64,000 bases of DNA from Candidatus Thermoflexus tengchongensis (GTDB lineage: Bacteria > Chloroflexota > Anaerolineae > Thermoflexales > Thermoflexaceae). The notes under the pieces are model-generated. The model was not told the origin of the DNA and did no database searches. It saw only the letters and a list, made by a program, of their open reading frames with translations. The position numbers and the translations under genes were made by a program. Positions 57,917 to 62,842 of this stretch are shown here, in pieces; position 1 is the stretch's first letter; each line of letters opens with the position of its first letter. The stretch covers positions 1-64,000 of the forward strand of contig JAEVEX010000075.1 of the NCBI GenBank assembly GCA_016842085.1. Direction: 5' to 3'.

Positions 57917-57945
57917 TTGACAAATGTCCGGGCGTCTGCTATCAT
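57917..57945 (+). promoter_or_regulatory. marR promoter
   Basis: Consensus TTGACA at 57917-57922, exactly 17 bases, TATCAT at 57940-57945. It is the best promoter in the window. The predicted start lies inside the palindrome that follows. Confidence 0.85.
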
Positions 57946-57966
57946 TACTTAGGACTCCTAAGTAAT
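57944..57966 (+). promoter_or_regulatory. Perfect 23-bp palindromic operator
   Basis: ATTACTTAGGA, one central C, TCCTAAGTAAT: 11 perfect complementary bases on each side. It overlaps the last two bases of the -10 box and the start point, just where a repressor would block RNA polymerase. MarR proteins bind such palindromes near their own genes; autoregulation is inferred. Confidence 0.8.
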
Positions 57967-57977
57967 GGAGCGCAACG

Positions 57978-58607
57978 ATGTCTCCCTTCAACCCGCGGGT
58001 GCGTTCGGAGCGGTTATCGGGGCAGATCGCCATCGCCCTCTACCGCATCGCCCAGGCGATCCAGATCATGCTGCGCCGGGCGGGGCAGGCTCATCGCCTC
58101 TCCCCTGCTCAGGTCCAGGCGCTCCTCTTCCTGGCTTATGCCCGACCCGGCGTGCGCACCATCGGCGGCCTGGCCCAGCGCCTGCAGACCACCATGGCGA
58201 CGGCCAGCGAGGTGGTCGACGCCCTGGAACGCAAGGGCCTGGTGGCCCGGGAACCATGGCCAGAGGACCACCGGATCATCGGCCTTCGCCTGACGGGGAA
58301 CGGGCGGCGCCGGGTGGCGGATCTGGAGGGCCTGCTGGACGACCTGGAGGCGGCGATCGCGGAGCTGCCCCCTGCCGACCAGCAAACGCTCCACCGGGCC
58401 CTGCAGCACATCGTGCGCCGTCTGGCGGCCGGCGGCCACGTGGTGGTCTATGAGATGTGCTGGGGCTGCGCCTTCTTCCGGCCCAACGTCCATCCCGATA
58501 ACCCCTCGGCCCCACACCACTGCGCCTTCATGGACGCCCCGCTGCGGGACGCGGACACCTATACGGAGTGCCCGGATTTCACCCCTCGCGAGGAGGTGCC
58601 AGCATGA
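57978..58607 (+). CDS. MarR-family regulator with C-terminal cysteine cluster
   Basis: 209 residues. A MarR winged helix at about 15-125 (TIGGLAQRLQTTMATASEVV is the recognition region, EDHRIIGLRLT the wing). The C-terminal 55 residues carry C161, C164, C182 and C198 with H172, H180 and H181 (CWGC, HHC, ECPDF), a candidate zinc or iron-sulfur site. It is the first gene of a unit with a glutaredoxin-like protein and a protoglobin, so it probably senses redox state, NO or oxygen. The 23-bp palindrome over its promoter is its likely site. The stop overlaps the next start (ATGA). Confidence 0.9.
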   Translation: MSPFNPRVRSERLSGQIAIALYRIAQAIQIMLRRAGQAHRLSPAQVQALLFLAYARPGVRTIGGLAQRLQTTMATASEVVDALERKGLVAREPWPEDHRIIGLRLTGNGRRRVADLEGLLDDLEAAIAELPPADQQTLHRALQHIVRRLAAGGHVVVYEMCWGCAFFRPNVHPDNPSAPHHCAFMDAPLRDADTYTECPDFTPREEVPA

Positions 58608-58891
58608 CCCGTGGAAGTCCTCTCCCCATCCGGATGTATGCGCGCCCGGATTGCGAGGACAGCGCCCTGGCCCGGGATCGGTTGCGGGAGCTGGGGATCC
58701 CCTTCGTCGAGATCAACATCGATGAGGACGAGGAAGCCGCCCGCTATGTGGAGCGCCTCAACCGCGGCTTCCGCAGCACCCCCACCCTCGTATTCGGAGA
58801 TGAAGCCTTCTACATCGTGGAGCCGACCGTGGAGCAGCTGGATGAGGCCCTGCGACGGGCAGGATATGAGATCCCTGTCCGCTCACGGTGA
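58604..58891 (+). CDS. Glutaredoxin-like protein, single active-site cysteine
   Basis: 95 residues, thioredoxin fold. The first strand and helix read MYARPDCEDSALARDRLREL: where glutaredoxins and mycoredoxins have CPxC, this has RPDC, so only C17 is left. The cis-proline TP at 59-60 is present, followed by LVFGDEAFYIVEP as in mycoredoxin-like proteins. It may work by a monothiol mechanism or only bind thiols. GAGGAGG precedes the ATG. Coupled to marR by a 4-base overlap. Confidence 0.82.
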   Translation: MTRGSPLPIRMYARPDCEDSALARDRLRELGIPFVEINIDEDEEAARYVERLNRGFRSTPTLVFGDEAFYIVEPTVEQLDEALRRAGYEIPVRSR

Positions 58892-58921
58892 GACTTTCAA
58901 ATCCTAAGAGGAGGCACAGCC

Positions 58922-59512
58922 ATGAGCGCACGAACGATTTCCGGCTACACGTATGGCACGGCGGAGGTCGCCCGTTCCCCGATCACCCGGGAGGATTTCG
59001 AGAACCTGAAAAAGGCCACCATGTTCACCGAGGAGGACGAGCGCTACCTGCGGATGGCCGGGGAGGTCCTGGCGGACCAGGTGGAGGACATCCTCGACCT
59101 CTGGTATGGCTGGGTGGGATCCCATCCCCACCTGGTGTATTACTTCTCCGGCCCGGACGGGAAGCCCGATATGAACTACCTCCAGGCCGTCCGCCAGCGC
59201 TTCGGCCAGTGGATCCTGGATACCTGCAATCGCCCCTATGACCAGGACTGGCTGAACTACCAGCAGGAGATCGGGCTCCGCCACCACCGCACGAAGAAGA
59301 ACCAGACCGATGGCGTGCGATCGGTGCCCCACATCCCGATGCGTTACCTGATCGCCTTCATCTACCCCATCACCTCCACCATCAGGCCCTTCCTGGCGAA
59401 GAAGGGCCACTCCCCGGAGGATGTGGAGAAGATGCATCAGGCCTGGACCAAGTCCGTGATCATGCAGGTGGCCCTCTGGTGCTATCCTTATACTCAGAAG
59501 GGAGACTGGTGA
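58922..59512 (+). CDS. Protoglobin
   Basis: 196 residues, single-domain globin. The extended N-terminal region and W61-Y62 in LDLWYGW match the distal Trp-Tyr pair of Methanosarcina acetivorans protoglobin; F94 in RQRFGQW lines the haem; the proximal histidine is H121 or H122 in EIGLRHH. Protoglobins bind O2, CO and NO and are found in archaea and in thermophilic Chloroflexota and other bacteria. GAGGAGG lies before ATG. Third gene of the MarR unit. Confidence 0.92.
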   Translation: MSARTISGYTYGTAEVARSPITREDFENLKKATMFTEEDERYLRMAGEVLADQVEDILDLWYGWVGSHPHLVYYFSGPDGKPDMNYLQAVRQRFGQWILDTCNRPYDQDWLNYQQEIGLRHHRTKKNQTDGVRSVPHIPMRYLIAFIYPITSTIRPFLAKKGHSPEDVEKMHQAWTKSVIMQVALWCYPYTQKGDW

Positions 59513-59520
59513 CCTTGCTG

Positions 59521-59557
59521 CCGGTGGGGCCCCTGTCCCTGGCTGGGGCCCCACCGG
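59521..59557 (+). terminator. 13-bp perfect hairpin between protoglobin and BTAD regulator genes
   Basis: CCGGTGGGGCCCC at 59521-59533 and GGGGCCCCACCGG at 59545-59557, loop 11 bases. It starts nine bases after the protoglobin stop and ends nine bases before the next ATG. It probably ends the MarR-protoglobin transcript; the lack of a T-run also allows attenuation of the next gene. Confidence 0.65.
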
Positions 59558-59566
59558 CCCCTGAAG

Positions 59567-62500
59567 ATGGCTCTGGAAGATCGGATTGCGCGCAGCCGGC
59601 TGATCCCGCCCCGGCCCCGGCCGGCCTGGGTGAGGCGCCCGCGCGTCGAAGCGCGGTTGCGGGAAGCCTTTCAGGCTCCGGTGACGGTGGTGCGGGCGGA
59701 TCCGGGCTACGGCAAGACCACCGCCGTCGCCCAGATGGTCCATTATGGGTTCTGGCCGGCCGCATGGTATAGCCTCGCGGAAACCGATCAGGATCCCCTG
59801 CTCTTCCTGGCCCACCTGATCGCCGCAGCTCAGACCCTGGACCCGGGTTGCGGGGCCCGCGCCCTGACGCTCCTCCAGTCCCCGGGAGGCGGGGCCCAGC
59901 ATGGCCCGGCCGTGATCGACACCCTGGCCAATGAGCTCCTGGATCGGCTCAGCCGGGATGCGCTGCTGATCCTGGACGATTACCACCTGGTCGAGGGCCC
60001 GGAGATCAACCCCCTGGTCGAGCGGCTCATCGAGCAGATGCCCCCTACCCTTCATCTCATCCTCCTCACCCGCCAGACCCCCGCCTTCCGCAACTTGGTC
60101 CGCTGGCGGGCTTACGGGGAGGTTCAGGAGATCACGACCGCCGATCTCGCCTTCACCCCCGAGGAGGTCCAGGCCCTTTTCACCGCCCACGGCGTCCCGC
60201 TTCCCCCTGAGGTGGTCCATCGGCTGGTGGAAGAGACCGAGGGATGGATCATCGCGCTCCTGATGATCCTGCACCGCCTTCGGGAGAGCGAGCGGGAAAC
60301 CCTGGAGACGCTCCTGGAACGGATCCCGGATACGCTGCCGGATCTCTTCGATTACTTCGCCGGGGAGGTGCTGAGCCGTCAGCCCCCGGAGATCCAGCGC
60401 TTCCTTCTGCAGACCAGCATCCTGACGGACCTGGATCCGGAGGTCTGCGCCGCCGTCCTGGAGAACCCGGAGGATCGCGCCCTGCTCCCTCTGATCGAAG
60501 GGCGGGGACTCTTCCTCAGCGTAAGCGGGGAAGGCCGTTATCGCTATCACCACCTGTTCCAGGAGTTCCTGCAGCGCCAGGCGCGGGTCCGGCTGGGAAG
60601 CTTGAAACCCCTGCACCGGCGCGCCGCCGCGTTCTATCAGGGGCGTGGGCAATGGGAATCCGCCATCGCCCATCTGATGGCCGCGGAGGCCTTCGAAGAG
60701 GCCGCCGGGCTTCTCGCCCTGGTGGCCGGACGGATGATCCAGCAGGGCCGCTACAGCACCCTCGCGGCCTGGATCGATCGCCTTCCACCTGCTGTTGTGG
60801 AGACCCGCGGAGAGCTGCTCCGGCATCGCGGGGATGCCGCCCGGCTGCTCAGCCGCTTCGAGGAGGCTCTTTCCTGGTATGAACGCGCCCGTCAGGCGGC
60901 CGCCCGGCGGGGGGATTCGATCGGGGAGGCGTATGCGCTGACCGGCCAGGCCCTGGTTTTCCTGGACACCGTGCAGCCGGCGCGGGCGGCCTCGCTCCTC
61001 CGGGAAGCCCTGCGCCGGATCGGCCGGGACGCTCCGGAGGAGCGTCTTCGCCTGCTAAGCCTGATGGCAGAGAATCTGCTGAACGCCGGCCGTCTCTCTC
61101 GGGCGGATCTCCTGCTCACCCTCCTCCGACGCCGGGATCCCACTGTGCTTCCTCCAGATGTGGAGATCCGCCTGCGGATCCGCCAGGGCCGCCTCGCCGA
61201 GGCCCGCCTTCAGGTGGAATCCCTCATCCGTGCGGCTCCCTGGGGGGCCGATCGCCAGCGGATCCCCCGATCGCATCGGGAGGCCACGATCCTGATGGCC
61301 TGGATCGGCGCGATGACCGGAGAAGGGGAGATGGCGCGCCGATATGCGGAACAGGGCCTGCGGATCGGCCGGGATCTCCGCTCGCCCATCGTCGAATGTG
61401 TGGCGCTCGCCCGTCTGGGCCACGGCTGGCTCTCCGGCCCGGATTATGATCTCCGGCGAGCCGAGGAGGCCTATCAGGAATCCCTGAGGGCGGCGGAGGA
61501 GATCCGGGTCCCCCGGTTCGAGGTGGAAGCTCACCTGGGGCTGACCGTCGTGGAAGGTCTGAAAGGGCGGCCGGGGCTGGCGATCGCCCACGGGCGGCGG
61601 GGGCTGGAGATCCTGGAGGAGGCCGGGGATGCCTATCTCTCGGCCGCCGTCTGGCTGGCCCTGGGGATCGCCGGGCTCTGGAATGGGGATCCCCACGCGA
61701 TGGAATGGCTGGAAGCAGCCATCCGTGCAGGGAGCCGGTGCGGGGAGCGCTATTTCTCCACCCTCGCCCGGCTCTGGCAGGCGTGGGCCCTCCTGAGGCA
61801 GGGAGAGCGTTCCGCCAGTTTGCTCCCCCTGAAGGCCGCCCTGGAAGCCATCCAGGCGGAAGGCTATGCCTTTATGCTCACCGGGACCCCGCTGCTGGGA
61901 TTGCGGGACCCGGGAGCCCGGCTGTTGCTGCTCCAGACCGCGCTCGGCGCTCGTATTGCTTCGGATTACCTCGGGACCTTGTGGTCTCAGGCTCTTCGGG
62001 CTTCCGCATCCCACGCTCCCTTCGGCCCCTGGGCGCTCCCTCCGGCGGAGAACCGCCCGTATCCGCCCCTGTATATCCAGACCCTGGGGCCTTTTCGGGT
62101 CTGGCGGGGGCTTTATGAGATCCCGGCGGAAGCCTGGGGGCGCACGCGGGCCCGCCGTCTCTTTCAGTTTTTGATCGCCCATCGCCGGCGCCCGGTGCAT
62201 CGGGAGGAGATCCTGGAGGCCCTCTGGCCGGATCGAGATCCGGCGAGCGCGGCCCTGGAGCTGCGGGTGACCCTCCATGCCCTCCACCGCGCCCTGGAGC
62301 CCACCCGGCGGCCCGGCCAGCCGCCCTTCTATGTGATCCGGGAAGGGGAATTCCTGCGCCTGAACCCTCAGGCGATCCTCCACATCGATGCCGACATGTT
62401 CGTCGCCCTGCTGGCCCGGGCGCAGGAGCGCGAGCCCCTCGCTCCCGATGAGGCCCTGGGCTGGCGGCGGCAGGCCCTAACGTTGATGCAGGGGGAGTTC

Positions 62501-62842
62501 CTGGAGGAATGCCGGTATGAAGACTGGGCAATCCCGGAGCGGGAGTATCTATCGGCCCTCTACCTGAACACCGCCGAACAGGTCGCGAAGGCCCTGGCGG
62601 CACGGAACGCCTGGGAGGAGGTGATCCCTATCGCCCAGCGGATCCTGGAGCGGGATCCTTACCACGAGGCCGCCTGCCAGCTGCTGGTTCAGGGATACTG
62701 GGCCCTCGGACAGCGCGCGCTGGCCGTTCGCACCTACGAGCGCTTCCGACAGCGCATGCGCAAGGAGCTGGGGGTCGAGCCGACGTTCTCTCTGGCTGCT
62801 CTGCGAACAATCCCCCCTCATTCGAGGGGATCCGCTGATTAG
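59567..62842 (+). CDS. STAND-TPR-SARP/BTAD transcriptional regulator
   Basis: 1091 residues. MalT/LuxR-like STAND NTPase (about 1-330): Walker A ADPGYGKTT at 44-52 and Walker B LLILDDYH near 136. Then TPR-type helical repeats (about 350-800). An OmpR-type winged helix (about 830-920, starting IQTLGPFRVWRG and followed by RRPVHREEILEALWP) and a BTAD domain (about 930-1080) with LMQGEFLEECRYEDWAIPER follow. Ligand-triggered oligomerisation is expected. No good ribosome binding site precedes ATG; the upstream hairpin sits where it would be. The target is unknown; the regulator stands beside the protoglobin unit and faces an EamA transporter. Confidence 0.9.
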   Translation: MALEDRIARSRLIPPRPRPAWVRRPRVEARLREAFQAPVTVVRADPGYGKTTAVAQMVHYGFWPAAWYSLAETDQDPLLFLAHLIAAAQTLDPGCGARALTLLQSPGGGAQHGPAVIDTLANELLDRLSRDALLILDDYHLVEGPEINPLVERLIEQMPPTLHLILLTRQTPAFRNLVRWRAYGEVQEITTADLAFTPEEVQALFTAHGVPLPPEVVHRLVEETEGWIIALLMILHRLRESERETLETLLERIPDTLPDLFDYFAGEVLSRQPPEIQRFLLQTSILTDLDPEVCAAVLENPEDRALLPLIEGRGLFLSVSGEGRYRYHHLFQEFLQRQARVRLGSLKPLHRRAAAFYQGRGQWESAIAHLMAAEAFEEAAGLLALVAGRMIQQGRYSTLAAWIDRLPPAVVETRGELLRHRGDAARLLSRFEEALSWYERARQAAARRGDSIGEAYALTGQALVFLDTVQPARAASLLREALRRIGRDAPEERLRLLSLMAENLLNAGRLSRADLLLTLLRRRDPTVLPPDVEIRLRIRQGRLAEARLQVESLIRAAPWGADRQRIPRSHREATILMAWIGAMTGEGEMARRYAEQGLRIGRDLRSPIVECVALARLGHGWLSGPDYDLRRAEEAYQESLRAAEEIRVPRFEVEAHLGLTVVEGLKGRPGLAIAHGRRGLEILEEAGDAYLSAAVWLALGIAGLWNGDPHAMEWLEAAIRAGSRCGERYFSTLARLWQAWALLRQGERSASLLPLKAALEAIQAEGYAFMLTGTPLLGLRDPGARLLLLQTALGARIASDYLGTLWSQALRASASHAPFGPWALPPAENRPYPPLYIQTLGPFRVWRGLYEIPAEAWGRTRARRLFQFLIAHRRRPVHREEILEALWPDRDPASAALELRVTLHALHRALEPTRRPGQPPFYVIREGEFLRLNPQAILHIDADMFVALLARAQEREPLAPDEALGWRRQALTLMQGEFLEECRYEDWAIPEREYLSALYLNTAEQVAKALAARNAWEEVIPIAQRILERDPYHEAACQLLVQGYWALGQRALAVRTYERFRQRMRKELGVEPTFSLAALRTIPPHSRGSAD

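Follow-up and report, generated by a model that had tools for sequence, protein, structure and literature searches.

Does the gene cluster formed by a MarR-family regulator, a glutaredoxin-like protein, and a protoglobin in Candidatus Thermoflexus tengchongensis constitute a genuine regulatory circuit, and what signal would it sense? The cluster lies in a 64,000-nucleotide stretch (the window), which belongs to a 3.9-Mb genome; its features are listed in Table 1. The original prediction placed the three genes under a palindromic site and proposed a gas- or redox-sensing circuit in which all three products act together.

The identities assigned to the three genes hold. The first product matches the Pfam MarR and MarR_2 domains and contains exactly the four predicted cysteines. 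Its AlphaFold (AF2) model (pLDDT 91) shows the usual MarR fold, to which the cysteine tail adds a loop-rich extension, and the top Foldseek matches are all MarR proteins, aligned over approximately 135-155 columns of its 209 residues. Thus, the winged-helix domain and the predicted fold both place the regulator in the MarR family. The second product has the glutaredoxin domain, a single cysteine, as predicted, which is the catalytic one and lies in the CEDS motif, and the TP cis-Pro motif (STPT), and it scores under every NCBIfam equivalog cut-off. The third product is a single-domain protoglobin with the proximal His and TyrB10. Its PDB match, over the full length, is 2veb from Methanosarcina acetivorans (Ma-Pgb; E 2e-90). 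The two share their heme-pocket residues, His121 and Tyr62 of the window protein corresponding to H120 and Y61, although Ma-Pgb is archaeal; Y61, F93, and H120 (Ma-Pgb numbering) are intact in 46 of 46 protoglobins from the loci.

The ATG of the glutaredoxin-like gene overlaps the MarR stop codon (ATGA) and the protoglobin gene starts 30 nt past the next stop, a spacing that suggests one transcript, possibly ending at the hairpin just downstream. Further 3′ on the same strand, here and in other Thermoflexus genomes, follows a TPR/BTAD transcription activator (1091 aa; window 59567-62842). Among the clusters of neighboring open reading frames, clusters 2, 12, 14, and 26 are antisense artifacts of high-GC reading frames and were ignored.

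Table 1. Coordinates of features in the window and, in the last row, in loci of relatives
Feature	Position	Strand	Description
Sigma-70 type promoter	57917..57945	+	-35 TTGACA 57917-57922; extended -10 TATCAT 57940-57945
Putative operator	57943..57967	.	Perfect 25-bp palindrome CATTACTTAGGA-C-TCCTAAGTAATG, arms 57943-57954 and 57956-57967; overlaps -10
Conserved operator core	57949-57961		TTAGGANTCCTAA, within the palindrome
MarR-family regulator	57978..58607	+	209 aa; PF12802 E 1.3e-12, PF01047 E 2e-9
MarR C-terminal Cys4 tail	58410..58604	+	CX2C-X17-C-X15-C; C161, C164, C182, C198
Glutaredoxin-like protein	58604..58891	+	95 aa; Glutaredoxin PF00462 E 2.7e-12
Single-domain protoglobin	58922..59512	+	196 aa; Protoglobin PF11563 E 2e-39
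Perfect 14-bp hairpin	59520..59558	+	Just 3′ of protoglobin stop; no T run
Protein with near-terminal SGDLSLP	L116:5803-6558, L132:1382-2137, L135:3077-3814, L095:5673-6434, L036:1712-2443		Adjoins the regulator in several phyla

The promoter is near-consensus, as anticipated: its two hexamers make 11 of 12 consensus matches over a 17-nt spacer, TG precedes the -10 element, and it is the sole match in 3.5 kb, where 0.4 would be expected. The palindrome covers the -10 end of this promoter, so that the regulator has, like other MarR-family members, a candidate palindromic operator over its own promoter. The site had been described as flawless and 23 bp long; its symmetry is indeed perfect (12+1+12, arms 100% complementary), but the arms give 25 bp. 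Perfect arms of at least 12 nt are rare in Markov simulations of the window (none in nine of ten runs), and the window itself contains five, counting overlapping placements of longer hairpins. The weight of the palindrome as evidence comes from its conservation in relatives rather than from its rarity in simulations.

For the conservation analysis, the core TTAGGANTCCTAA was taken from the window and sought in all loci with a threshold of at least 10/12 matches. Such a site is present in 68 of the 80 relatives whose loci were read in a genome scan (L037-L116). In 887 kb there are 102 sites, versus 12 in shuffled sequence; at 11/12 or more the numbers are 66 and 0. The site is nearly always directly 5′ of the first gene of the operon, be it the regulator, the protoglobin, or another partner: it precedes MarR where MarR leads, and protoglobin where protoglobin leads. 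The 84 aligned non-redundant sites form an extended palindrome with TA on both outer sides and AT-rich flanks, and 43 of them, across phyla, have TTGACA 28-32 nt 5′ of the core. This fixed distance places the -10 hexamer on the left arm of the operator, a geometry that points to autorepression by promoter occlusion. Thus, the palindrome appears to be part of a real circuit, as predicted.

The exact core occurs once per genome, at this promoter, in the window genome, in G243, in Calidithermus (G446), and in G449 and G450; the regulator would therefore be mostly local. Further sites precede a thioredoxin-like gene in three loci (L031, L109, L113) and an unannotated exported protein in two (L116, L132). 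A one-mismatch site elsewhere in the window genome (G000:C63:66134), by another MarR gene and an ABC transporter, looks unrelated; a reversed control pattern has six matches at the same laxity. One congener, G002, has two overlapping copies of an altered operator, TTCGGACTCCGAAGTTCGGAGTCCGAA, at the same promoter (L006; L040:72-98); this naturally occurring variant would lend itself to studies of binding.

The scan found 461 relatives of the regulator, in Chloroflexota, Armatimonadota, Bipolaricaulota, Actinomycetota, Alphaproteobacteria, Nitrospirota, Planctomycetota, Bacillota, Acidobacteriota, Deinococcota, Cyanobacteriota, and Kryptonia, and plasmids add Bacteroidota; these labels come from record titles, and groups represented by a single genome may include binning errors. 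The closest named relative at the locus is Candidatus Thermoflexus japonica, with a MarR 93% identical. Conservation of the cysteines in orthologs was one of the checks proposed with the prediction, and C161, C164, C182, and C198 prove invariant in every alignment of relatives. Because the scan used the pattern PH[HY]C, H180 and C182 are in part fixed in L037-L116 by the way these loci were found; all four cysteines are nevertheless retained in the plasmid set and in the Thermus-type set, both found without this pattern. In Thermus-type members, where the tail has diverged, H180 is lost (CLTCRHLRREEGFFCALL...LACPDH), and Thermus is without the histidines. The likely ligands of a metal or cluster are therefore the four cysteines. 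The tail matches no family in Pfam, NCBIfam, or the PDB, a PDB profile search returning chance matches only, and AlphaFold models it poorly when given it alone (pLDDT 63.5).

The second proposed check was synteny. The three genes are consecutive in the same-genus genomes G001-G005 and G008, and other Chloroflexota families retain the trio (identity 53-63% for MarR and 35-81% for the glutaredoxin); a few Chloroflexota loci retain only MarR and protoglobin. The glutaredoxin-like relatives keep one cysteine, in C(E/D)D(S/T/A), and STPT. In three of the Thermoflexus genomes (G003, G004, G008) approximately 700 extra bases separate the glutaredoxin and protoglobin genes; the insert encodes a cupredoxin lipoprotein in G008 (L037:6097-6537) and G004 (L007:2539-2979), and the matching gap of G003 is in L003. 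All three have the copper nitrite reductase NirK above the cut-off, G001, G002, and G005 have neither insert nor NirK, and the window genome has NirK without the insert.

Beyond the genus, the loci were selected by the cysteine-tailed regulator (Cys-MarR) alone and not by protoglobin. Protoglobin is nearby in 48 of the 82 tabulated loci, spread over 12 groups: 3′ of MarR in Chloroflexota, Armatimonadota, Alphaproteobacteria, Nitrospirota, Planctomycetota, Bacillota, and Acidobacteriota, and 5′ of it in Bipolaricaulota, Actinomycetota, Deinococcota, Cyanobacteriota, and Bacteroidota. As one Armatimonadota case falls within Chloroflexota in the MarR tree, we state the linkage as covering at least 11 phyla. 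MarR and protoglobin tree distances are correlated (Mantel r 0.68; none of 999 permutations reached this value), so the two genes have mostly moved as a pair, even as their order changed. Among 400 evenly drawn Chloroflexota genomes, uncorrected for relatedness, Cys-MarR is present in 28, of which 25 have protoglobin, versus 44 of the 372 others (P 3e-18); in 22 of the 28 the two genes lie within 2 kb. Among 111 Deinococcota genomes, all six Methanosarcina-type protoglobins (at least 117 bits) lie within 2 kb of Cys-MarR, and the lower-scoring protoglobins among those listed do not.

The glutaredoxin-like protein, in contrast, was found in Chloroflexota loci only among those examined. It is a Chloroflexota accessory, and other lineages have unrelated thiol proteins. 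Thus, the idea of a three-member circuit survives in part: Cys-MarR, the operator, and a heme protein form the constant core, whereas the glutaredoxin is not a universal member. In other lineages cytochrome P460 (in Kryptonia and the Thermus type), truncated or other globins, or thiol and peroxidase proteins accompany protoglobin or stand in its place. Nitrospira has an exported truncated globin and DUF2024 as partners, and cyanobacteria have a globin or TM_HPP; cupredoxin, AhpD-like, and AhpC/TSA proteins also occur. DUF2024 is directly 5′ of Cys-MarR in Nitrospira (L103:4683-4934, L104:4665-4940) and lies between protoglobin and Cys-MarR on a Hymenobacter plasmid (L036:3413-3676). An exported-looking protein of approximately 250 aa with a near-terminal SGDLSLP and no Pfam match also adjoins Cys-MarR (Table 1); with operator cores directly 5′ of it in L132 and L116, it is probably another target of the regulator.

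A further link concerns nitrite reduction. NirS makes NO, and its d1 domain is found 1.2-1.8 kb from the regulator in 13 of the 26 Deinococcota genomes with Cys-MarR, all in the Thermus-type branch. In G496, the operator is followed by protoglobin, P460, and Cys-MarR, and then, facing them, a radical-SAM gene and nirS; in Thermus-type genomes the radical-SAM gene at this place (L130:2815-3942) passes the NCBIfam threshold for TIGR04053 but not the one for NirJ. Because the presence of nirS by itself is weakly associated with the regulator in Deinococcota (P 0.02), the argument rests on adjacency. The window genome encodes NirK elsewhere than at the locus (320 bits; cut-off 296).

Cys-MarR with its operator and heme partners thus has the look of a stress-sensing switch that is widespread and so far undescribed, with NO as its most likely signal. 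The predicted gas or redox sensing is suggested by the gene company: NirS, cytochrome P460, and several globins. Drawing on the gene set, the conserved promoter-overlapping operator, the invariant cysteines, and the links to heme proteins and NirS, all of them sequence evidence, we favor, at about even confidence, an autoregulated operon under a repressor that responds to NO or nitrosative stress through four C-terminal cysteines holding a metal or an Fe-S cluster. This metal site (an Fe-S cluster or zinc) would enable a MarR dimer to bind DNA, and the dimer, seated on TTAGGANTCCTAA over the -10 region, would block RNA polymerase. The Cys4 site would be attacked by NO, or by a reactive nitrogen species related to it, that either the cell's own nitrite reductase or neighbors produce, and the repressor would release the DNA. 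Protoglobin would then be made and would bind and convert NO or peroxynitrite; in vitro, Ma-Pgb catalyzes both peroxynitrite isomerization and nitrite reduction (PMC4020757). The co-made small thiol protein, glutaredoxin-like in Chloroflexota, may repair or reset modified thiols. That the protein represses, that it carries a metal, that NO is the signal, and that the thiol protein has a resetting role are all inferred. Several observations speak against NO: NirS linkage is confined to the branch where the tail has diverged, Thermus thermophilus has a separate NO regulator, NsrR (PMC5748679), and the AhpD-like, redoxin, thiol peroxidase, catalase, and HTHP partners point to peroxide or thiol stress.

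These last partners suggest another scenario, in which the Cys4 site is a zinc/disulfide redox switch: peroxide, hypochlorite, or disulfide stress would oxidize the cysteines, the zinc would be lost, and repression would cease, and protoglobin and the thiol proteins would serve oxidative-stress defense. CX2C pairs suit zinc, and peroxidase or thiol neighbors occur in several phyla, thioredoxin-like proteins among them, with thiol peroxidase and thioredoxin in Nostoc and HTHP and catalase in Hymenobacter. However, the commonest partners are NO-reactive heme proteins and the Thermus-type loci adjoin NirS, so we regard this scenario as rather unlikely. The standard MarR fold would suit an ordinary ligand-responsive regulator, with a small molecule (heme, a phenolic, or a lipid) in the usual pocket, as MarR proteins such as the heme sensor PefR act by ligand binding, and with the Cys4 site as structural zinc only. 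Here conservation of the protein is highest at the cysteines, and no recurrent small-molecule catabolic or efflux gene lies beside the regulator, which makes such a mode of action quite improbable. Least probable is an O2 or CO switch tuning protoglobin for respiration or O2 delivery instead of detoxification: globins bind both gases and several hosts, judging by record titles, are spring-dwelling thermophiles whose habitat has steep O2 gradients, but cytochrome P460, the proximity of NirS, and the thiol partners would be left unexplained.

The proposed NO-responsive repressor has parallels in known systems. In Corynebacterium, the winged-helix repressor ArnR carries a [4Fe-4S] cluster ligated by C-terminal cysteines, and NO lifts its repression of hmp (PMC12343034). 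A winged-helix repressor with a cysteine-ligated tail is thus an existing kind of protein. ArnR resembles our regulator in its MarR/ArsR-like winged helix, C-terminal cysteines, and globin target, but it has three cysteines (179, 193, and 223) and is almost confined to Actinobacteria (PMC12343034), whereas our regulator has four with a different spacing, CX2C-X17-C-X15-C; its MarR domain is clear, and its main partner is protoglobin. NsrR is likewise a local, Fe-S-based repressor of an NO-detoxifying globin, but it belongs to the Rrf2 family, which the regulator does not match in Pfam or NCBIfam, and differs in its cysteine arrangement; the NsrR site in Thermus is CTTGACCNNGGTCATGG (PMC5748679). 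We propose that the regulator works like NsrR and ArnR and belongs to neither group. Within Thermus, a MarR-family gene named norR is conserved and syntenic in denitrification islands (PMC9270275). It is probably the Thermus Cys-MarR member beside nirS; the text searched mentions no cysteine tail, operator, P460 or protoglobin partner, or wider family. A literature search that had most subscription journals outside its scope returned no MarR-protoglobin pairing of this sense and no description of the operator. Among the MarR proteins themselves, OhrR, MexR, and MgrA/SarZ are thiol-based sensors that rely on one or two cysteines of the core dimer. They share the fold and the use of cysteines with our regulator, but are not known to have its C-terminal Cys4 tail.

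What protoglobins do in the cell is not settled; proposals include the chemistry of NO and peroxynitrite, the metabolism of CO, and the binding of O2. Conservation of the regulator and its operator with protoglobin over much of the bacterial tree makes this role testable through the derepressing signal; the operator motif helps to find further members of the response, and the Cys4 domain stands without a match in the domain and structure collections. We tentatively suggest, while rating it below even, that these proteins represent a new class of NO sensors, namely MarR repressors whose four C-terminal cysteines form an Fe-S site and which share the operator TTAGGANTCCTAA, found in about a dozen phyla with protoglobin as their main target. 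If so, bacterial protoglobins would acquire a general role in NO defense, paralleling that of the NsrR-Hmp system.
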